A DNA stretch of 37,537 bases from Rikenellaceae bacterium. Lineage in GTDB: Bacteria > Bacteroidota > Bacteroidia > Bacteroidales > Rikenellaceae. The position numbers and the translations under genes were made by a program. Under the pieces are notes generated by a model that worked only from the letters and a program-made list of their open reading frames with translations, searched no databases and was not told the origin of the DNA. Numbering within the stretch: the stretch's first letter is position 1; each line of letters starts with the position of its first letter. The stretch is from the NCBI GenBank assembly GCA_029068395.1, contig JAIECQ010000164.1, forward strand, positions 1-37,537, read 5' to 3'. Shown in pieces: positions 8,511-21,184 of the stretch.

Positions 8511-9149
8511 CTATTCAAACAGCCCTGTCAGCTCTACAAACCGGCGGGTCGCCGCGCATGGGTCGTCGGCATGCGATATGGCTCCGCCTATGGCAATGCC
8601 GTGCACTCCTGTGCGGGCAATGGCGGCCACGTCGTCGGGTGTTATGCCTCCTATGGCCACCACGGGAGGGGCATTCTTCACCGCCGACATAATACGCGCA
8701 TATCCCTCTATGCCCAATATGGGGGCGAGCGCCTTTTTGGTGGCGGTGTGGCGCATCGGCCCCAGCCCTATATAGTCGGCTCCCGCCTCCATGGCCGCCT
8801 TGATATCCTCTTCGGTGTTGGCGGTGACACCTATTATGGCATCGCCCAGCATGTGGCGGGCCTCCCCGGGAGGCATGTCGCCACGGCCTAAGTGTACCCC
8901 GTCGGCCTTTACGCGGGCGGCCACCTCCACGCGGTCGTCTATTATGAGCACCCCGCCGCAGGCATGCACCGGCAGCAGCAGCATCCTGGCCGTCTGCTCA
9001 ACCATGCTGTCGTCGTGCTCTTTCATGCGCAACTGCACCCACCGTCCGCCGCCGCTCAGGTATAGAGCCACCTCTGAGGCGATATCTTGGGGCGTCGCTC
9101 CGGTGGTTATATATTGCAGACGGGCTATCTTGTCTCTGTCTGTTGCCAT
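8511..9149 (-). CDS. thiE: thiamine phosphate synthase ThiE
   Basis: WVQLRMKEHDD, LIIDDRVEVAARVKADGVHLGRGD, YIGLGPMRHTATK, AIGGITPDD. Confidence 0.92.
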   Translation of the reverse strand: MATDRDKIARLQYITTGATPQDIASEVALYLSGGGRWVQLRMKEHDDSMVEQTARMLLLPVHACGGVLIIDDRVEVAARVKADGVHLGRGDMPPGEARHMLGDAIIGVTANTEEDIKAAMEAGADYIGLGPMRHTATKKALAPILGIEGYARIMSAVKNAPPVVAIGGITPDDVAAIARTGVHGIAIGGAISHADDPCAATRRFVELTGLFE

Positions 9150-9751
9150 TTGTCTCTCATTTTAATGATGTTGTCCAAGGTAGACTCAGGGTCTATCTCT
9201 CCGTCTCTTACCACCCATGCCGACCCTATCATGGCCGCCCCGCCAAAGCCGGCCTCTCTGCATATTGTTATGTTTTCACCTGTTACGCCCCCCAAGGCGA
9301 CCACCTTTTGCCTCATGCCTGTGGGCAGTGAGCGCAAGAATGCGCGCAGCCTGTCGAGGTCGAATGCAGAGGCATACCCCGGCTTTGATATGCTGTCAAA
9401 TACGGGACTTAGAAAGATGTAGTCGGCCTTGCCCTCGTACAGAGCCGTTGCCGCCTCGTCCGTTGAGTGGCACGACAGGCTCAGCCGTCCGTGGCATGGC
9501 TCGTTGCGCTCGGCAAAACGTCTGTGGGTGCCTCCCATGCGGTGATGAAAGGCCGTCTGCGCGTTGTGATGCACCGAAAAGCGCATCAACATGCCGGGGT
9601 CGTTGCCGCACACCCTTCTGACGGTGTCGGCCAGAGCCTCAATCCCGTTGTGGCGCCTCAGGTGTATGGTGACGCCCTCTTGCGCGGCAATAAGAGCCAG
9701 CGCCTCATCTTCGCGCGGCAAAGAGTGGGGCAGGGTGATGACGACTATCAT
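9125..9751 (-). CDS. ThiE/TenI-like thiamine phosphate synthase paralogue (divergent)
   Basis: LSLSCHSTDEAATALYEGKADYIFLSPVFDSISKPGY and VVALGGVTGENI match the ThiE/TenI barrel; the canonical DDR and HLG motifs are not recognisable. Confidence 0.78.
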   Translation of the reverse strand: MIVVITLPHSLPREDEALALIAAQEGVTIHLRRHNGIEALADTVRRVCGNDPGMLMRFSVHHNAQTAFHHRMGGTHRRFAERNEPCHGRLSLSCHSTDEAATALYEGKADYIFLSPVFDSISKPGYASAFDLDRLRAFLRSLPTGMRQKVVALGGVTGENITICREAGFGGAAMIGSAWVVRDGEIDPESTLDNIIKMRDKWQQTETR

Positions 9752-9752
9752 G

Positions 9753-9950
9753 TCAGCCTCCCTGTGTGGCCCTTATTATGGTTATGTTGTCGTTCTGACT
9801 CAGTAGGTGGTCGCCCCACGCCGCCGCCGGCACTATCTTGGTGCCCGCCGCCACCGCAATGCCCTCTGCCGACACGCCAAGATGCGCAAGAAGCTCTGCC
9901 ACAGTGGCGCCGTCGAAAACTACCTCTTCGTTGTTTACGATGATTTTCAT
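9753..9950 (-). CDS. thiS: sulfur carrier protein ThiS
   Basis: 65 aa MKIIVNNEEVVFDGATVAELLAHLGV...NDNITIIRATQGG with a C-terminal GG. Confidence 0.92.
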   Translation of the reverse strand: MKIIVNNEEVVFDGATVAELLAHLGVSAEGIAVAAGTKIVPAAAWGDHLLSQNDNITIIRATQGG

Positions 9951-9973
9951 CTGAAGCATGTTTTTGTTCTCCG

Positions 9974-9981
9974 CAAAAGTA
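9974..9981 (-). promoter_or_regulatory. -7 promoter element of the thi operon
   Basis: TACTTTTG on the reverse strand, 23 nt upstream of the thiS ATG. No clear TTTG -33 partner. Confidence 0.45.
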
Positions 9982-10208
9982 ACAAAAAAAACGGTTGGGT
10001 GTCTTTGTCGCGGCGCATTAGTTTGAATGGCATCGTCACTTATGCGCAGGCGTGCCATGACCGCTTGTTATCGGTAGTGTTTTTGCAGTCTCTGTGGCGC
10101 AGCCTGACAAGCCTTGATGCAGCCTCTTCAGCCTGTTTTACCCATGCGGAAAGCGTGAGGATGAAATTTTTATTGAGTATAAAATGGAAAAAGAAGCGAC
10201 CTTTTTTG

Positions 10209-10216
10209 TACCTTTG
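10209..10216 (+). promoter_or_regulatory. -7 promoter element for the GH2-plsC unit
   Basis: TACCTTTG on the + strand about 50 nt upstream of the 10266 ATG. Confidence 0.45.
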
Positions 10217-10265
10217 CAAGGAACGCGCGGAATGCCCCTCGCGATAAAAAACCAGTCAACATCTT

Positions 10266-12293
10266 ATGATTGAGAAGATAATAAAAGGCGTGCTGACGCT
10301 TTCATTGCTCTTTTCGTGCGCCGCTGCCCACGCCCAGAGAGACACCAGCGACATGCGCAACCTGTCGCTGCCCTCAAGGTCACGTCTTGCCTCGCGTGCC
10401 AAGTTCATGACCTATCCCAAGGCTCCTGCCGACACCGCTTCGTTCGCCTCGTCGGTCTATCATGCCTCTTTAGACGGAGAGTGGCGCTTCAGATACTTCC
10501 CTAACGGCAGACCTGTCAAGGGGTACAACACTGTCGGATTTGACGACTCGGGCTGGAGCACCCTTTCGGTGCCATGCAGTTGGGAGGACGCCGGTATTGT
10601 CAAGGCCTCTGACGTCTCGTCGCCCTATCCCTTTGTCAGAAAGGGCGATAAGGCCCGTCTGCCCAAAGTGCTGCCTGTTGGCGTCTATCGCTCTACGTTC
10701 GTTGTGCCGTTCGACTGGAACCATCGTCAGAAGCTCCTTAACATAGGACGCTTCGGCGGCGCCGTGACGGTGTGGATCAACGGGCACAAAGCCGGTTATG
10801 CCGAGGGCGGCTCTGTAGGTGCCGAGTTTGACATAACCAACCTCTGTGTAGAGGATGTTAACACCATAGTGATAGAAAACCACCTCTATGCCAAAGGTTC
10901 GTTGCTCGAAGGGTCGCGCACACGTCGTCCCGACGGTCTTGCCGGAGGCGTCTATATAATATGTCAGCCCAAGGTGCGCGTAAGCGACATTATCACCGAG
11001 TCTACCCTCGACCCCACCTGCACTGACGGACTGTTGCACATAGGCGTGGTTGTCAAGTCGCACTACCTCAATCCTAAGGAGCTTAAGGTCTATTACGAGT
11101 GCTACGACGCCCAGGGCCGCTCTATAGGTCGCGAAAGCAAATACACCAACTTGCAGATGCGTCTGCAAGACACCGTGCACTTTCTCTTGCCTATAAAAGA
11201 GGTGTGCAAGTGGAGCGATGAAGACCCCTACCTTTACACCGTCAAGATAAAGACCCAGCGTCCCGACGGCCGTTACTCCGAATACCTCACGGTGCCCGTG
11301 GGCTTCAGGACGGTGGACGTAAGAAGGTCAGAGCTTCTTGTAAACGGCCGTCCGGTCGAAATAAGGGGCGTTGTAATGCGTGACGGCGGCGTGTGTCTCG
11401 ACACCTTGAACAACAGGTTGCTTAGACTTAAGAAGATAGGCGTCAATGCCATACTCACCCAGCCCATGATGCCCGAGTTTTACAGCCTGTGCGACAGATA
11501 TGGCTTCTATGTCTTCGATCAGGCACCGGTGGAGTCTACCGGTGCCGGCGAGAGCCTCACCAAGGGACGCTCGTTGGGCAACGACCCCGCATGGGTCAGC
11601 TCGTTTGTAGAGCGTGCCGAAAACATGATGCAGCGCGACAAGCTCCACCCGTCGGTGGTGGCATGGTCGCTCGGTTACCGCTCGGGCAACGGTTACAACA
11701 TGTACAAGTCTTACCTTAACCTCAAAGCCAAAGACCGCACCCGCCCGGTATGCTACGGCGGCGCGGGGTTAGAGTGGAACACCGACCTTTACTGCCCCGT
11801 CAACCCCGACCTCGACAAGCTCGGAGGGTGGGGCAATGTGGGCGATGTGCCGTGCGTGATAGAAGAGTATAGGGCCGACATTCCCACCTTCGACCGCGTG
11901 TGGGACATCGTCAGGCGTTCCGGCTCGAAGGTGCAGGGGGGCTTTATGTTCGACTTCGAGGCCCTCGACAGCAACAAGCAGCTCAAAGGAGCCGTCTTTA
12001 TGCGTTTTACTCCCGTGACTCTCAGCCTCGGGCCCGACGAGACGGTGGTGGTGACCAACAGGTGCAAGTTCTTGAATCTTGATAGGTTCCATGTCAAATG
12101 GCGTCTGACTACCGAGGGAGGCAAAAAGATATCTGAGGGCGATTTAAATGAGTCGGTGGCTCCCGGAGAGAGCGCCGAGATACGTCTGGTCAAAGAGAAA
12201 CGCTCCCTGCCTAACCAGAAGCTGATATTCATGATGACATTGCAGAAGAAAGACGGCCTGGAGACGGTAACACGCATAACTATGGAGTTTTAG
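10266..12293 (+). CDS. secreted glycoside hydrolase family 2-like protein with degenerate active site
   Basis: Signal peptide (LTLSLLFSCAAAHAQ), GH2 jelly-roll SLDGEWRFRYFPNG, TIM-barrel CDRYGFYVFDQAPVESTG, HPSVVAWSLGYRSGNG, VIEEYRADIP, QGGFMFDF, and a DUF4981-like TNRCKFLNLDRFHVKWRL. Confidence 0.85.
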   Translation: MIEKIIKGVLTLSLLFSCAAAHAQRDTSDMRNLSLPSRSRLASRAKFMTYPKAPADTASFASSVYHASLDGEWRFRYFPNGRPVKGYNTVGFDDSGWSTLSVPCSWEDAGIVKASDVSSPYPFVRKGDKARLPKVLPVGVYRSTFVVPFDWNHRQKLLNIGRFGGAVTVWINGHKAGYAEGGSVGAEFDITNLCVEDVNTIVIENHLYAKGSLLEGSRTRRPDGLAGGVYIICQPKVRVSDIITESTLDPTCTDGLLHIGVVVKSHYLNPKELKVYYECYDAQGRSIGRESKYTNLQMRLQDTVHFLLPIKEVCKWSDEDPYLYTVKIKTQRPDGRYSEYLTVPVGFRTVDVRRSELLVNGRPVEIRGVVMRDGGVCLDTLNNRLLRLKKIGVNAILTQPMMPEFYSLCDRYGFYVFDQAPVESTGAGESLTKGRSLGNDPAWVSSFVERAENMMQRDKLHPSVVAWSLGYRSGNGYNMYKSYLNLKAKDRTRPVCYGGAGLEWNTDLYCPVNPDLDKLGGWGNVGDVPCVIEEYRADIPTFDRVWDIVRRSGSKVQGGFMFDFEALDSNKQLKGAVFMRFTPVTLSLGPDETVVVTNRCKFLNLDRFHVKWRLTTEGGKKISEGDLNESVAPGESAEIRLVKEKRSLPNQKLIFMMTLQKKDGLETVTRITMEF

Positions 12294-12296
12294 CGC

Positions 12297-13037
12297 ATGA
12301 AGATAATACTGTTTCTGATATATCTGGTGCCGCTGTTGGTCGTAGAGCTTGCGATAATAGCCTTGACGTGCCTCTTGACCTTCGCTTTCGACCGCGACCG
12401 GAGGATTGTTCACGGCATATCGCACATCATGTCGGGCACCATAACATACCTGTCGGTGCTCTGGCGCATGAAAACCTGCGGCATGGATAATATCGGGCGC
12501 GGCAAGAGCTATGTGGTGACCGTCAACCACCACTCCATGATAGACATACCCGTCTGCTACTCGCTGCCCCTCTTCTTCAAGTGGGTCTCCAAGCGCGAGG
12601 TGCTTAAGATGCCTCTCTTCGGCTGGGTGCTCAGGCTTCGCGGCGACATAGCCATAGAGCGCGGAGGGGTGGCCAGCACCATGAATCTGTTCAAGCGCAC
12701 CAGAGAGCTGACCTCACGCGGCTGTTCCGTGATCATATTCCCCGAGGGCACCCGCAGCAAGAGCGGAGCTATGGGGCGCTTCAAAGACGGCGCTTTCATC
12801 ATGGCCAAAGACAATGATGTCGAGATACTACCCGTGGTTATAAATTACACCATGCGTGGCCGCCGCCTCTTTGGCAAGACGGTCAATATACCGTGCCGCA
12901 TAGAGCTTAAGGCGCTCAGGCCTGTCGACATAGAGACGGTGCGACAGAAGAGCGCGGGAGAGCTTCGCGACATGGTGCGCGATATTATGGTGGCCGAGCA
13001 TAAGGCGTCACACCCTGAGCTTTATGCGCAGCAGTAG
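12297..13037 (+). CDS. plsC: 1-acyl-sn-glycerol-3-phosphate acyltransferase (PlsC-like)
   Basis: H(X4)D motif NHHSMID and FPEGTRSKSG. Confidence 0.9.
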   Translation: MKIILFLIYLVPLLVVELAIIALTCLLTFAFDRDRRIVHGISHIMSGTITYLSVLWRMKTCGMDNIGRGKSYVVTVNHHSMIDIPVCYSLPLFFKWVSKREVLKMPLFGWVLRLRGDIAIERGGVASTMNLFKRTRELTSRGCSVIIFPEGTRSKSGAMGRFKDGAFIMAKDNDVEILPVVINYTMRGRRLFGKTVNIPCRIELKALRPVDIETVRQKSAGELRDMVRDIMVAEHKASHPELYAQQ

Positions 13038-13133: not shown

Positions 13134-14981
13134 ATGGCAGAGACAATAAGTTATACCGAGGACAACATACGCACCCTCGACTGGAAAGAGCACATAAGGC
13201 TTCGTCCGGGCATGTACATAGGCAAGCTGGGCGACGGCACCTCTCCCGACGACGGCATATACATATTGATAAAGGAGGTCGTTGACAACTCCATCGACGA
13301 GTATGCCATGGGCAACGGCAAAAGCATCGACATTGCCATAGAAGACAAGACCGTCACCATCCGCGACTTCGGCCGCGGCATACCCTTGGGCAGCCTTGAG
13401 GCGGCGGCCTCTCGCATGAACACGGGCGGTAAGTACGACTCCAAGGCCTTCAAGAAGTCGGTGGGTCTCAACGGTGTGGGCATCAAGGCGGTCAACGCCC
13501 TCTCGTCACGCTTTGTCATCACCAGTGTGCGCGACGGCAAGAGCCGCACCATAGAGTTCTCGGCCGGCAATATCGTCTCTGACAGCGAGGCTGACACCTC
13601 TGAGAAAAACGGTACGCGAGTGTCGTTCACGGCCGACGATAGCGTCTTCGGCTCTTACGACTATAACCTGGAGTATATCGAGACCATGGTGAAAAATTAC
13701 ACCTATCTCAACTCCGGGCTTACCATACGCCTTAACGGCACCCCCTACCTCTCTAAAGAGGGCCTGCTCGACCTTCTCAACGACACCCTCTCGGAAGAGC
13801 CGGTCTATAAGCCCATCCACCTCAAGGGCGACGACATAGAGATAGCCATGACCCACGGCGGCGGTTACGGCGAGACCTATTACTCGTTCGTCAACGGCCA
13901 GCACACCACCCAGGGAGGCACCCATCAGGCCGCCTTCCGCGAGTCGCTGGTCAAGGTGGTGCGCGAGTTTTACCGTAAAGATTTCGATGCGGCCGATATA
14001 CGCATGTCGGTGATAGGGGCCATCAGCATCAAGGTAGAGGAGCCTCTGTTCGAGTCGCAGACCAAGACCAAGCTCGGCTCTAAAGACATGAAGCCGGGCG
14101 GCGATGTGAGCGTACGCCAGTTTGTCGCCGACTTCATGCAGCAGTTAGACAACTATCTGCACAAAAATCCCGACGTTGCCGAGGCGCTTCAACGCAAGAT
14201 ACTCGAGTCAGAGAAAGAGCGCAAGGGCGTTGACGACCTGCGCAAGAAAAAGGGCAAGAATGCCAAGAAAACCAGTCTCAACAACAGCAAGCTGCGTGAT
14301 TGCCGCATACACCTCAACACCAAGAACGAGCGTGCCGAAGAGTCGACCATCTTCATCACCGAGGGCGACTCGGCCAGCGGCTCCATCACCAAGAGCCGCG
14401 ATGTCAACACCCAGGCCGTCTTCTCGCTCAGAGGCAAGCCCCGCAACACCTTCAGCCTCACCAAGAAGGTGATATACGAAAACGAGGAGTTCAACCTTTT
14501 GCAGGCGGCCCTCGATATAGAAGACGACATAGAGGGCCTGCGTTACAACAAGATAGTGATTGCCACCGATGCCGATGTGGACGGCATGCACATAAGGCTG
14601 CTGCTGCTGACCTTCTTCATAAAGTTCTTCCCCGACATCATACGCCGCGGTCACCTTCACATATTGCAGACCCCTCTTTTCCGTGTGCGCAACAAGAAAG
14701 AGACCCGTTATTGTTACTCTGAAGAGGAGAAGCAGGCGGCGGTGACCCAACTCAAAACAGGCGTTGAGATCACCCGCTTCAAAGGTCTTGGCGAGATATC
14801 GCCCGACGAGTTCAAGGAGTTCATAGGTCCCGGCATGAGGCTCGACCGTGTGCGCATGAGCAAGGACGACCCCATAAACGACCTTTTGGAGTTCTATATG
14901 GGCAACAACACCTCCGAGAGGCGCGATTTCATCATAGACAACCTGCGCATGGAGACCGACATGGTCGAAGAGGGAGCCTGA
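13134..14981 (+). CDS. parE: DNA topoisomerase IV subunit B (GyrB/ParE family)
   Basis: [16 protein letters not shown] motifs DNSIDEY and [25 protein letters not shown] and [17 protein letters not shown]. Followed directly by a subunit A gene. Confidence 0.92.
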
Positions 14982-15069: not shown

Positions 15070-17811
15070 ATGAGCGATAACTATAACGAAGAAATGTTTG
15101 AGGACGAAGAGTTCGTCACCGATGAAGAGGATGTCGAGCAAGAGACGGATGACGGCGATGTTGCCGACGATGTCAACACGCATCGGTTTGCGCGTCTGAC
15201 GGTTGAGGATGGCGGCATGAACCGTCTGACGGGTATGTACAAGGAGTGGTTTCTGGATTACGCCTCATACGTCATACTTGAGCGTGCCGTGCCCCACATC
15301 ACCGACGGTCTCAAGCCGGTGCAGCGACGCATACTTCATGCCATGAAACGTATGGACGACGGCCGTTACAACAAGGTTGCCAACATCATAGGCAACACCA
15401 TGCAGTACCACCCGCACGGCGACCGCTCCATAGGCGACGCCCTTGTGCAGATGGGTCAGAAAGAGCTTATGATAGACTGCCAGGGTAACTGGGGCAACAT
15501 ACTCACCGGCGACAGCGCGGCAGCTCCCCGTTACATCGAGGCGCGCCTCTCCAAGTTCGCCCTGGACGTGGCCTTCAATCCCAAAACCACAGAGTGGATG
15601 CTCTCTTACGACGGCCGCAACCAGGAGCCGCTCACCCTGCCCGTCAAGTTCCCGTTGCTGTTGGCGCAAGGCGTCGAGGGCATAGCCGTGGGTCTGGCCT
15701 CCAAGATACTGCCCCACAACTTCAACGAGCTGATAGAGGCCTCTATAGCCTACCTCAAAGGCGAGCCGTTCGAGCTTTATCCCGACTTCCCCACCGGCGG
15801 CATGATAGACGTGTCTCGTTATAACGACGGACTGCGCGGCGGCGTGGTGCGCGTGAGGGCCAAGATAGTCAAGGTCGACAACAAGACACTGGCCATCACC
15901 GAGATACCTTACGGCAAGACCACCTCGTCTACCGGCAAGCGCAAGGGCAAGAGCAGCAAGGAAAACTCGTCTATCATCGACTCTATAATAAAGGCCAACG
16001 AGCGCAACAAGATAAAGATAAAGAGCATTGACGACAACACCGCCGCCAATGCCGAGATACTCATACACTTAGGCTCTGACGTGTCGGCCGACAAGACCAT
16101 CGACGCCCTCTATGCCTTTACCGATTGCGAGATATCTATATCGCCCAACTCGTGCGTCATTGTCGACCGCAAGCCCTGCTTCATGGGCGTGAGCGACATA
16201 TTGCGCCACTCGGCCGAGACCACCCGTTCGTTGCTCGGCCGCGAGCTTGAGATAGAGCTTCACGAGCTTGGCGAAGAGTGGCACCTCAGCTCGCTGGAGA
16301 AGATATTCATCGAGAAACGCATCTATTACAAAATCGAGGAGTGCACCACCTGGGAGAGCGTGTTGGAGACGATAGACCGCGAGCTGGAGCCATATAAGAA
16401 GCTCTTCTTCCGAGAGATTACCACCGACGACATTGTCAAGCTCACCGAGATAAAAATCAAGCGCATCTCCAAGTTCGACGCCTTCAAGGCCGACGAGCAT
16501 ATCAAGGCCGTTGAGGAGCAGATAAAGACGGCCAAAGACCACCTCGACCACCTCACCGACTACACGATAGACTATTACCGCCGCATAGGCGAAAAGTACG
16601 GCAAGGGTCGCCAGCGCCGCACCGAGATAAAGTCGTTCTCGGCCATCGAGGCCACCAAGGTCGCCGTGTCGAACGCCAAGCTCTATGTCAACCGCGCCGA
16701 GGGCTTCTTCGGCATAGGCAACGCCATGAAACGCGACGAGTTTGTGTGCGACTGCTCTGACATTGACGATGTTATCATAATATGCCGCGACGGCGACTAT
16801 GTCATCACCAAGGTGAGCGAGAAGGCCTATTTCAAGAAAGACATAATGTATATAGGAGTCTTCTTGCGCGGCGACGAACGCACCATCTATAACGTTCTTT
16901 ACCGCGACGGCGCTGCCGGCAACTATATGATGAAACGTTGCGCCATCAAGGGCATCACGCGCGACAAGGTCTATAACCTCACCAAGGGCGAGCCGGGTTC
17001 TGAGATACTGCATCTGTCGGTCAACCCCAACGGCGAGGCCGAGGTGCTTAAGGTCTATCTCAAACCGCGGTTGAGGCTCAAAAAGCTTATTGTCGACCTC
17101 GACTTCTCGACTCTGGCCATCAAGGGGCGCTCTTCGCAGGGAAACCTCTTCCAGAAAAACCCCATACACAAGATAGTGCTTAAAGAAAAGGGAGTCTCTA
17201 CCTTGGGCGGTATAACGGTGTGGTTTGACGAGTCCGAAAGACGTCTCAACACCGACGGCCGCGGCACCGAGGTGGGTGTCTTCGAGGGCGATGACAAAAC
17301 CATCGTAATACGCCGCCGCGGCAGCTACTACACGGCGGGTTACGACACAAGCCTTCACTTCCCCGAAGATCTGCTGTCGGTGAGCAAATACTCGCCCGAC
17401 CGCATCTATACGGTTGTTTTGTGGGACGCCTCGCAGGGCTTCTATTACCTTAAACGCTTCAAGGCCGAGCCTACAGAGCGCGAGATGTCGTTCATTGACG
17501 ATAGCGAGGGCTCTTACCTTGTGGCAATCACAGGCGACAGGTTCCCTCAGCTGAAGGTCACCTTCGGCGGGGCCAACTCTTCGCGTCCCGAAGAGGTTAT
17601 CGACGCCGACGAGTTCATACGCATCAAGGGGTGCAAGGCCAAGGGCAAACGCGTCACCACCTATCAGGTCGACCGCCTGGAGTTTATAGAGCCTCTGCAC
17701 AAGAGCGTGCCCGCCGACCCTTCTGAGGGCATGGGCGACCAGGAGCCGCTGCCTCCCGCCCCTGACGAGCAGGACGACGAGCCGGTAGCGGAGCAGAGCC
17801 TCTTCGATTAG
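15070..17811 (+). CDS. parC: DNA topoisomerase IV subunit A (GyrA/ParC family)
   Basis: DGLKPVQRRILHAM, YHPHGDRSIGDALVQMGQ, catalytic-Tyr region SAAAPRYIEARLSKFA. Strongly acidic N-terminal tail. Confidence 0.92.
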   Translation: MSDNYNEEMFEDEEFVTDEEDVEQETDDGDVADDVNTHRFARLTVEDGGMNRLTGMYKEWFLDYASYVILERAVPHITDGLKPVQRRILHAMKRMDDGRYNKVANIIGNTMQYHPHGDRSIGDALVQMGQKELMIDCQGNWGNILTGDSAAAPRYIEARLSKFALDVAFNPKTTEWMLSYDGRNQEPLTLPVKFPLLLAQGVEGIAVGLASKILPHNFNELIEASIAYLKGEPFELYPDFPTGGMIDVSRYNDGLRGGVVRVRAKIVKVDNKTLAITEIPYGKTTSSTGKRKGKSSKENSSIIDSIIKANERNKIKIKSIDDNTAANAEILIHLGSDVSADKTIDALYAFTDCEISISPNSCVIVDRKPCFMGVSDILRHSAETTRSLLGRELEIELHELGEEWHLSSLEKIFIEKRIYYKIEECTTWESVLETIDRELEPYKKLFFREITTDDIVKLTEIKIKRISKFDAFKADEHIKAVEEQIKTAKDHLDHLTDYTIDYYRRIGEKYGKGRQRRTEIKSFSAIEATKVAVSNAKLYVNRAEGFFGIGNAMKRDEFVCDCSDIDDVIIICRDGDYVITKVSEKAYFKKDIMYIGVFLRGDERTIYNVLYRDGAAGNYMMKRCAIKGITRDKVYNLTKGEPGSEILHLSVNPNGEAEVLKVYLKPRLRLKKLIVDLDFSTLAIKGRSSQGNLFQKNPIHKIVLKEKGVSTLGGITVWFDESERRLNTDGRGTEVGVFEGDDKTIVIRRRGSYYTAGYDTSLHFPEDLLSVSKYSPDRIYTVVLWDASQGFYYLKRFKAEPTEREMSFIDDSEGSYLVAITGDRFPQLKVTFGGANSSRPEEVIDADEFIRIKGCKAKGKRVTTYQVDRLEFIEPLHKSVPADPSEGMGDQEPLPPAPDEQDDEPVAEQSLFD

Positions 17812-17959
17812 AGGTAACCTAATAGAGCCGAGGGGCGTCTGTTGTGCATGGGCGTCCCGCACATGAGTGCAGGTGCCGTGGTCAGCAGGTTTGCGCGAAG
17901 CACGCCGCTTGTTGCGCGGGGATTGTTTTTATGTGCTGCATGTTAGCAAAGGAGGTGTT

Positions 17960-18466
17960 ATGCCACTGTTTCTGATAGGATATATGGGGTCAGGCAAGAG
18001 CACGCTGGGCCGTAGGGTAGCCGCCGCGTTGGGCTGGCGCTTTGCCGACATGGACAAGGAGATAGAGCGCAAGGCGGGCATGACTGTCCCCGAGATATTC
18101 TCGACGCTCGGCGAGCCGGCCTTCAGGCAGATGGAGCACGATTATATACTGTCGCTCTCACCCGACGATGACGTGGTGGTGGCCACCGGCGGAGGCGCCC
18201 CGTGCCACTTCGACAACATGGATGCCATGAATCGTCTGGGCGTCACGCTCTATCTGCGGGTGCCCGCCGGTGCGCTGGCCGACCGTCTTGTTGCAAGCCG
18301 TACGCGCCGCCCGCTCATAGAGGGCAAGAGTCCCGAGAGCCTGCGCGCATACGTCGATAGCCACCTGTCCGAACGCGAACCATACTACACCCGTGCCACA
18401 TATACGCTTGAGGGCGTGAGCATCAATGCCCGCCATATCGTCGAGACACTTCGCCTTAAGTTGTGA
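17960..18466 (+). CDS. aroK: shikimate kinase
   Basis: LIGYMGSGKSTLGRRVA (P-loop), FADMDKEIERKAGMTVPEIF, VATGGGAPC, RTRRPLI. ATG placed at 17960, 4 nt after a GGAGG. Confidence 0.93.
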   Translation: MPLFLIGYMGSGKSTLGRRVAAALGWRFADMDKEIERKAGMTVPEIFSTLGEPAFRQMEHDYILSLSPDDDVVVATGGGAPCHFDNMDAMNRLGVTLYLRVPAGALADRLVASRTRRPLIEGKSPESLRAYVDSHLSEREPYYTRATYTLEGVSINARHIVETLRLKL

Positions 18467-18715: not shown

Positions 18716-21184
18716 TTAGTCGAAATATACTCTTTTTACCCGGGGAGCTATAAGGGTCAGTATCTCATAAGGTATTGTGTCGAGTATCTCGGCCATCTGC
18801 ACTATCTCTCTGTTGCCTGAAAATATGGTGACCTCGTCGCCGACAGCGGCGGGTATGCCTGTTATGTCTATCATGCAGGCATCCATGCAGATGTTGCCTA
18901 TTATGGGGGCCTTGTGTCCGTTTACGGTAAATGACCACCTGCCGCAGCTTAGCGCGCGTCTCAGTCCGTCGGCATAGCCTATGGGCACCGTGGCTATCAC
19001 CGAGTCGACACCCGTAACGCCGCGCCTGTTGTAGCCTATCCGTTCGCCGGCCGGCAGTGACCTTATCTGCGATATCACGCTCTTTAGCGAGGTCACGCTT
19101 TGCAGGTCGTCGGTAAATGGACTTATGCCGTAAAGGCCCAGCCCCAGACGCACCATGTCAAACTGAGCCTGGGCAAACCGCTCTATGCCCCATGTGTTAG
19201 ACAGGTGACGCAGTATGCTCTTGTCGCCCAAAAGCTGCATAAGACGGCTGCTCATGCGGTCGAACAGCTCTATCTGCCTTATGGTGAGGTCGTCCTGGTC
19301 GGGGTTGTCGCTCGAAGGGAAGTGCGAGAATATGCTTTTTATGCTCAGGGTGCGGTCGCCGGCCAAGCGTTCGGCCAAGGGCTGCAACTCATCTTCGGCA
19401 AAGCCTAACCGGTGCATGCCGGTGTCTAACTTTATGTGCACGGGGTAATGCGACTCGGCGGCGCGTCGTACATCTGAGCTAAACAGCTCTAACGACTCGA
19501 AGTCGTATATCTCAGGCTCAAGCGAGTAGTCTATCATGGCGGCAAACCCGCTTGGCTCGCTGTTGAGCACTATAATGGGCGTTGTTATGCCTCCTTGTCG
19601 CAATGTTACCCCCTCGTCGGTATATGCTACGGCGAAATAGTCGACATGCTGACGCTCAAGTGCCGCCGCTACCTCTACACCTCCATGACCGTATGACGAC
19701 GCCTTGACCATGGCCACGGTCTTGACGCCGGGACGCAGAAGACGACGGTGGTAATTGAGGTTGAAGCACATGGCCGCCAGGTCTACCTCCATCACGGTAG
19801 AGTGGCGTTGCACTTCGAGCATGCGGCTTATGCGTTCAAAGGCAAATTGTCTGGCTCCTTTGAGCAGCACGGCGGCCCCGGCTGTTGACGAGCGGTCAAA
19901 CTGCTCTATGAACTGCTCTGTCGAGATATAAAAAGAGGAGTCAATGCCGACGAACAGCTCTTTGGATGCCGTTATGTCGCTGCCTATGGCGTGCAACCTG
20001 CCGACACCGTGATGCCGCAACATGTCGGCCACCTTGGCATAGAGACGTTCCGGCAGATGTCCCGACTGTGATATGTCAGATATGATGGCTATCTTGGGCC
20101 TGTCGGCCGATATGTCGCACAGACGGTCAAGCGCCACTGCCAACGACCCCGTGTCGCTGTTGTAGCTGTCGTTGAGCACTACCGAGCCGTTAATGCCCTG
20201 CCTCATCTCAAGCCTCATGGCCACGGGTCGCAGTTCGCCTGTGGCCGATAGCGCACCTTTAAGACGCTGCCCCCCCTCTATGGCGTCGAGACAGGCGTAA
20301 AAAGCCAGTGCTGTCAATACGTTGTCAAGCGAGGAGGCGTCGGTAAACGGCACGGTGGTGCTATAATCTGACCCCGACACGGTGAATGTTATCAGTGTAG
20401 TCCCGTTTGACTGCACGCATCCTGTCACACGCATGCGCGCTGTCGGCGAGGTGCCCCAGTCGAACAGGTCACGGTCGGCATACTCTTGGGTCACGGCATG
20501 CGCCACCTCGGCATGGTCAGAGCAATATACTATGGCGCGCGAATGGCTTGCTATATGCAGCTTCTGACGCAGCTTGTCACCCCGCGACGTGAAGTTGCCG
20601 TCGTGAGCCTCGCCTATGTTGGTTATCACGCATATGTGCGGCCTTATCATGCGCTCAAGCCGCTCCATCTCGCCCGGTTTCGACACCCCGGCCTCAAATA
20701 CCGACAATACCTCGTCACCCTCGCACATGGTTATGGCCACAGCCACCCCTATCTGTGAGTTATAGCTCTTGGGACTCACGAACAATCCACCCTTGCCACA
20801 CCATAGGGCGGCAATCCACTCTTTGACCACCGTTTTGCCGTTGCTTCCCGTAACTGCCGCCACCGTGCCCGATATGTCGCTTCGCATGTGCGAGGCCACC
20901 GCCTGCAAGGCCGCCAAGGTGTCGTCTACGGCTATGAACGCCTCGCCCTCCTTAAGCTCGGGCAGTGGGTAATTGCTGCTTACTATGAAATTGCAGATGC
21001 CTCTGCAGCGCAACCCCTCTATGTAGTGGTGCCCGTCGCGCGTGGCGCCGCAAAGAGCCACAAATACCGTGTGACTGTCGCAGGCTATGCGCCGCGAGTC
21101 AAATGCAAATGTCTCTATGACGGAGTCATTGCCCGTAAGACGCCCTCCGCATATACGGGCAATGGCAGATGCCGTTGTTCTCAT
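18716..21184 (-). CDS. bifunctional UDP-MurNAc-tripeptide:D-Ala-D-Ala ligase / alanine racemase (MurF-Alr fusion)
   Basis: N-terminal Mur ligase P-loop VTGSNGKTVVKEW. C-terminal alanine racemase PLP site TVAMVKASSYGHGGVE and ERIGYNRRG. Confidence 0.93.
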   Translation of the reverse strand: MRTTASAIARICGGRLTGNDSVIETFAFDSRRIACDSHTVFVALCGATRDGHHYIEGLRCRGICNFIVSSNYPLPELKEGEAFIAVDDTLAALQAVASHMRSDISGTVAAVTGSNGKTVVKEWIAALWCGKGGLFVSPKSYNSQIGVAVAITMCEGDEVLSVFEAGVSKPGEMERLERMIRPHICVITNIGEAHDGNFTSRGDKLRQKLHIASHSRAIVYCSDHAEVAHAVTQEYADRDLFDWGTSPTARMRVTGCVQSNGTTLITFTVSGSDYSTTVPFTDASSLDNVLTALAFYACLDAIEGGQRLKGALSATGELRPVAMRLEMRQGINGSVVLNDSYNSDTGSLAVALDRLCDISADRPKIAIISDISQSGHLPERLYAKVADMLRHHGVGRLHAIGSDITASKELFVGIDSSFYISTEQFIEQFDRSSTAGAAVLLKGARQFAFERISRMLEVQRHSTVMEVDLAAMCFNLNYHRRLLRPGVKTVAMVKASSYGHGGVEVAAALERQHVDYFAVAYTDEGVTLRQGGITTPIIVLNSEPSGFAAMIDYSLEPEIYDFESLELFSSDVRRAAESHYPVHIKLDTGMHRLGFAEDELQPLAERLAGDRTLSIKSIFSHFPSSDNPDQDDLTIRQIELFDRMSSRLMQLLGDKSILRHLSNTWGIERFAQAQFDMVRLGLGLYGISPFTDDLQSVTSLKSVISQIRSLPAGERIGYNRRGVTGVDSVIATVPIGYADGLRRALSCGRWSFTVNGHKAPIIGNICMDACMIDITGIPAAVGDEVTIFSGNREIVQMAEILDTIPYEILTLIAPRVKRVYFD

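Follow-up and report, generated by a model that had tools for sequence, protein, structure and literature searches.

The Rikenellaceae gene described here encodes one member of a recurrent, family-wide class of GH2-derived pseudoenzymes (pseudo-GH2s). Its product, P0001, is probably a secreted pseudo-beta-galactosidase, a descendant of a LacZ-type enzyme that would have been kept by selection as a non-catalytic scaffold with domain 2 as its main contact surface. We put the probability of this reading at roughly 70%. Rikenellaceae is the family of Alistipes, common gut bacteria.

A predicted secreted GH2 protein with nearly all of its active site lost

The gene lies on the forward strand of contig JAIECQ010000164.1 from a Rikenellaceae MAG, of which 37,537 nt of this contig were analysed (the window). 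As in the original prediction from the sequence, the ORF is open and intact and the GH2 scaffold is retained: the GH2 N-terminal, Ig-like and TIM barrel domains and LacZ domain 4 each score above the Pfam cut-off, which gives P0001 the architecture of a GH2 protein. The features of the gene and the sites of its altered motifs are:

10266..12293, + strand: pseudo-GH2 gene, product P0001; open ORF with an ATG start, 675 aa
10266..10334, + strand: predicted signal peptide MIEKIIKGVLTLSLLFSCAAAHA, cleaved between AHA and Q; looks type I (rule-based call)
10464..10910, + strand: domain 1, jelly-roll sugar-binding domain, aa 67-215 (Pfam PF02837)
10974..11309, + strand: domain 2, Ig-like, aa 237-348 (Pfam PF00703)
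11313..11960, + strand: domain 3, TIM barrel with the active site lost, aa 350-565 (Pfam PF02836)
11376..11387, + strand: MRDG for LacZ R356-H357-E358-H359 (alignment to LacZ)
11457..11474, + strand: TQPMMP for SHYPxxP, H391 lost (alignment to LacZ and orthologues)
11532..11540, + strand: E-S-T for E416-T/S-H418, metal-site Glu kept, His lost (alignment to LacZ)
11676..11681, + strand: Y471-R472 for the acid/base pair N460-E461 (alignment to LacZ)
11865..11867, + strand: E534, equivalent of the nucleophile E537; Arg in the G001 orthologue (alignment to LacZ and orthologues)
12045..12203, + strand: LacZ domain 4 fragment, aa 594-646 (Pfam PF16353)

P0001 ends at aa 675 after domain 4, and LacZ domain 5 is absent. 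Its best solved relatives are LacZ-type beta-galactosidases (3bga, E = 8.7e-70), and the closest named record is L035 from an uncultured Rikenellaceae bacterium (88% identity over the whole protein). An AlphaFold model built from a two-sequence alignment of P0001 and this orthologue had a pLDDT of 32. By the rule-based call, 87 of 102 short relatives have a hydrophobic N terminus that resembles a signal peptide and only four have a lipobox; the periplasm is the most likely location of the pseudo-GH2.

The residues of P0001 were mapped against E. coli LacZ as reference. Of the residues checked for catalysis, metal binding and substrate contact, P0001 retains only E416 and E537 (as E423 and E534, respectively), plus a conservative change of E358 to D. 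The acid/base pair is replaced (N460 to Y, E461 to R), and the residues of the metal site and the galactose contacts are gone (D201 to R, H357 to R, H391 lost, H418 to T, H540 to A, W568 to F, N604 lost), as are N102 (S), H359 (G) and Y503 (N). The motif WSLGYRSG, in which the prediction had read an acid/base Glu replaced by Arg, is at residues 467-474, essentially as placed, and RGVVMRDG, DQAPVESTG, VIEEYRADIP and QGGFMFDF were all found in the protein. The motifs were thus correctly described, but the losses were under-counted and the absence of LacZ domain 5 was not mentioned. Active Rikenellaceae paralogues have GNEA or GNES at the acid/base motif, and since GNEA is what the full-length ones show within the same genomes, there is no doubt about the alignment frame.

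The acid/base Glu is absent from all species-level orthologues, with YRS in G000, G002 and G003 and SLS in G001, and the operon orthologue of G023 has NGG. Since the orthologues share the loss, and close homologues do not all carry GNES, a lone mutation or sequencing error is ruled out. An orthologue alignment had been proposed as a check on GYRS; it bore out a common loss of the acid/base residue, under purifying selection (see below), and not the conservation of GYRS itself, which differs between genera. The dead pocket is therefore not visibly a conserved new binding site. With homology to an enzyme and a catalytic-motif loss that is conserved in orthologues, P0001 is a probable pseudoenzyme.

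The retained E416 equivalent and nucleophile Glu leave room for very weak or unusual activity, and P0001 might still be a glycosidase that uses a different acid/base residue or a substrate-assisted mechanism. We regard this as extremely improbable, as nearly all of the other -1 subsite and metal residues are missing, along with domain 5. Moreover, the nucleophile itself is replaced by Arg in the congener G001 and in g8 and by Val in G023, and position 461 is R, L, G or N across the operon orthologues, with no conserved carboxylate found there. P0001 is thus probably without glycosidase activity.

A conserved operon and other core genomic sites

The pseudo-GH2 is the first gene of a GH2–plsC–parE–parC–aroK operon, and its neighbours are essential. 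The other features of the operon are:

10209..10216, + strand: candidate -7 box of the Bacteroidota type, TACCTTTG, some 50 nt ahead of the GH2 start codon (pattern match)
12297..13037, + strand: plsC-like acyltransferase; its ATG follows the GH2 stop codon by 3 nt (TAGCGCATG)
13134..14981, + strand: topoisomerase IV subunit B (parE)
15070..17811, + strand: topoisomerase IV subunit A (parC)
17867..18466, + strand: shikimate kinase (aroK), end of the syntenic block

Apart from this -7 box, the + strand has no TAnnTTTG between 3220 and 24685, the next being 14 kb on, which makes the box a candidate promoter of the whole operon. A single promoter may fit this arrangement, with the caveat that the pattern occurs 18 times in the window against 10.6 expected by chance and is weak evidence alone.

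The GH2–plsC arrangement is syntenic in five genera: g1 (four species), g21, g8 (seven species), g13 and g10. In one g13 genome (G015) the GH2 gene is with plsC and parE is elsewhere. The operon position is occupied by a short degenerate GH2 in g1, g21, g8 and g13, and by a 1088-aa GH2 with every catalytic residue intact in g10. Other genera have plsC–parE without a GH2 gene, and carry short GH2s at recurring core sites elsewhere, either beside DUF4954/der and rlmH (A-type), between der and glmS (C-type) or after the malic-enzyme gene maeB (B-type). These sites do not look like polysaccharide utilisation loci. The neighbours differ at every short-GH2 site and no constant genomic partner was found among them, so the gene neighbourhood does not identify a partner.

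Elsewhere in the window, two adjoining TMP-synthase/TenI-like genes (8511-9149 and 9125-9751, - strand) belong to a divergent thi cluster, and the second may be a regulatory or degenerate copy. A Mur ligase middle domain is fused to alanine racemase in an 822-aa protein (18716-21184, - strand), a fusion known from Bacteroidota.

A class of short GH2 proteins across Rikenellaceae

We scored GH2 proteins across Rikenellaceae at eight diagnostic sites and defined those of <900 aa as short. The 97 short proteins (430–850 aa) keep 0–3 of the eight residues and the 18 full-length paralogues keep all eight, with nothing between 3 and 8. Excluded by hand from this set were two contig-edge fragments with intact motifs (L030 and L076), two partial rows (L074 and the g10 operon fragment of G012) and two distant relatives (L004 and L056). 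The bimodal pattern is far beyond chance. In seven short proteins the 461 column does hold a Glu, but N460 is lost and the surroundings are of the kind GGEAG or ARESA; we read these as probable coincidence. It is very unlikely that the short Rikenellaceae GH2s work as beta-galactosidases. However, they pass the Pfam GH2 cut-offs and are easily counted as β-galactosidases in CAZyme inventories, so metagenome estimates of Rikenellaceae galactosidase capacity may be inflated.

The short form is present in 34 of the 37 sampled Rikenellaceae genomes, including that of the window. The three without it are G012 and G031, both of g10, and G034, which has a contig break at the locus. A match was found in 130 of 130 genomes, a count that takes in full-length matches; as g10 has full-length forms only, universal presence of the short form was rejected. 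Roughly 195 genomes of other families in the order showed no member of the short class. Their matches are full-length apart from a few fragments, and the short class therefore looks specific to Rikenellaceae. A scan of viral contigs gave no further homologues.

At the A-, B- and C-type loci (L042-L072, L088-L092), the short GH2s of A-type and some of those of B-type end or lose similarity at around barrel strand 5-6, with an occupancy of 0.44-0.53 at the positions of P0001 residues 478-565. In these proteins the TIM barrel itself seems to be incomplete.

Purifying selection and a shift of constraint to domain 2

Substitution rates were estimated by NG86, and some dS values were saturated. Between G000 and G002 the dN/dS of the pseudo-GH2 is 0.13–0.14, compared with 0.096 for the active paralogue, 0.098 for plsC and 0.047 for parE. 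The value is higher (0.31) between G000 and G003, and mostly 0.05–0.16 among the seven g8 orthologues. The gene is thus intact and under purifying selection, with neither a broken frame nor the neutral evolution of a pseudogene, and on dN/dS we reject decay. The original prediction had favoured retained repurposing over decay. The intact ORFs, the purifying selection and the orthologues that lack the acid/base Glu agree with that preference; the specific role, whether binding, scaffold or envelope, is a proposal.

A particular form of decay deserves separate mention, in which the ex-enzyme would be degenerating and its frame would stay open for no reason other than its place at the head of an essential operon and its translational coupling to plsC-parE-parC. 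The position of the gene, 3 nt before plsC, makes this conceivable, as a frameshift would be polar, and the next candidate -7 box on the + strand lies far downstream (above). However, polarity explains an open frame and neither a dN/dS of 0.05-0.16 nor a domain 2 that evolves slowest, and degenerate forms have been retained beside rlmH, glmS and maeB too. We therefore think this explanation unlikely.

In the operon pseudo-GH2s, the Ig-like domain 2 is relatively the most constrained domain, and of the three main domains it is domain 1 that evolves fastest. The divergence ratio of domain 2 to domain 3 is 0.90 (95% interval 0.77-1.05) in the operon pseudo-GH2s and 1.88 (1.60-2.21) in the active paralogues, with intervals from column resampling that ignores relatedness. 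Within g8, domain 2 evolves three times slower than the barrel (divergence of 0.058 vs 0.173). The former active-site columns vary freely between genera, with a mean identity of 0.35 vs 0.54 for the barrel. The weight of constraint has shifted away from the barrel and onto the Ig-like domain 2; it is relative and, between genera, could partly reflect folding instead of an interface.

These patterns also bear on the idea of a lectin-like glycan binder, in which galactosides would be captured or sensed by the former carbohydrate pocket or by the jelly roll of domain 1. The fold of GH2 domain 1 binds sugars, and there are known cases of inactive glycosidases as possible binders; for instance, binding was tested for GH26B of Segatella copri, which is catalytically inactive (PMC12704710). 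On the other hand, the -1 subsite residues are lost and what replaces them varies between orthologues, and domain 1 is the domain that changes fastest. This role is the less probable one, though it is the most credible of the alternatives to the secreted scaffold that we considered.

History of catalytic loss

A careful tree of 68 sequences and 375 columns places the intact g10 operon enzyme as sister to the pseudoenzymes of g21 and g1 with 100/100 support. As the g10 enzyme occupies the same site, catalysis was lost among syntenic orthologues, a conclusion that is well supported. The active/inactive label requires two changes on the best tree, and more than one on each of 200 bootstrap trees. 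By AU tests, trees that unite every pseudoenzyme in one clade are not rejected (p = 0.119), nor are those that unite every operon form (p = 0.219). Repeated loss of catalysis in Rikenellaceae is thus likely, not proven. A further hint comes from domain 2, in which the O and B forms share KSHxLN-type sequence with one group of active enzymes, and the A and C forms resemble another active group, which carries NSYNSAE.

Proposed role and relation to known systems

We propose that the ancestor would have been a full-length LacZ-type GH2, first in a plsC-parE-parC operon, and that the acid/base catalyst, the metal site, the substrate contacts and domain 5 would have been lost in the lineage leading to the genus of the window and its sister genus. 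The scaffold of domain 1, Ig-like domain and barrel would then have been kept by selection for a non-catalytic job, most likely binding to a partner protein or to a glycan of the envelope, and the Ig-like domain 2 would be the principal contact surface. A partner contacted through domain 2 would probably be a periplasmic or surface protein. Such a partner-binding or scaffold role would agree with the constraint seen in domain 2.

One candidate partner is an active GH2 paralogue, with which the pseudo-GH2 might form a hetero-oligomer or for which it might serve as a regulatory or structural partner or decoy. Active full-length paralogues (C192 and C106) do co-occur with it in G000, of the window's genus. 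However, G006, G011, G017 and G021 carry the short form without a full-length LacZ-type match; for G006, G011 and G021, which are about 99% complete, this holds at E<1e-20. The pseudo-GH2 is therefore not simply a subunit of an active enzyme, and we consider such a partnership highly improbable.

Nearly every relative in the family keeps at least one dead enzyme, so the new non-enzymatic job was probably taken more than once. A broader and more tentative possibility, which we hold to be doubtful, is that Rikenellaceae depend on a secreted non-catalytic GH2 scaffold as a family-defining envelope component that has been re-made repeatedly, with a function that predates each catalytic loss. The sources would then differ, with types O and B from a KSHxLNP-like lineage and types A and C from an NSYNSAE-like lineage. 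The copies would sit at core housekeeping loci and the syntenic g10 enzyme would do both jobs. The plsC-parE operon is an unusually clean case of catalytic loss, and because an intact enzyme and dead orthologues occupy one syntenic site in sister genera, whether the non-catalytic role came first can be asked directly.

The pseudo-GH2s have domains 1-4 in the same order as LacZ-type GH2s (E. coli LacZ, Bacteroides 3bga and 3dec, and the intact-motif Rikenellaceae paralogues), with roughly 30-44% identity and common barrel landmarks (WSLGxxxGNGYN, TDxxCP and QGGF). Unlike these enzymes, which are 1000-1100 aa long, they are 430-850 aa long, are missing domain 5 and are without the acid/base residue, the metal His and almost all -1 subsite residues. 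Secreted pseudo-glycosidases with binding or receptor functions include Klotho (GH1-derived) and the chitinase-like proteins (GH18-derived). Those are eukaryotic and from other GH families, whereas the Rikenellaceae case is bacterial, within GH2 and probably involves repeated losses in one family. Expansion of pseudoenzymes within a glycosidase family beside active paralogues has been described for GH28 of leaf beetles (PMC6549527). That is an insect multigene family that degrades pectin, and the Rikenellaceae proteins differ in that they are few in copy number and lie at core loci of bacterial genomes, where the housekeeping neighbours are diverse. A 2025 GH2 subfamily classification covers GH2 sequence space, and its main text has no mention of inactive GH2s or of Alistipes/Rikenellaceae (PMC12243196). 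Pseudo-glycosidases are thus a known kind, and the novelty of bacterial GH2 pseudoenzymes is provisional, as no description of them was found in the literature searched, the coverage of which was incomplete.

The acid/base NE has also been lost in a second, separate GH2-like family of beta-glucuronidase-like size, in L004 (C65 of the window's own genome, 707 aa) and L056 (G013, around 9853-11925, 691 aa), which have MWGIFGGLRTGG and MWGIFSDLSLRG, respectively. A paralogue in that family (L005/L038, C149, 710 aa) keeps FNELKEHG and VSEYGAG.
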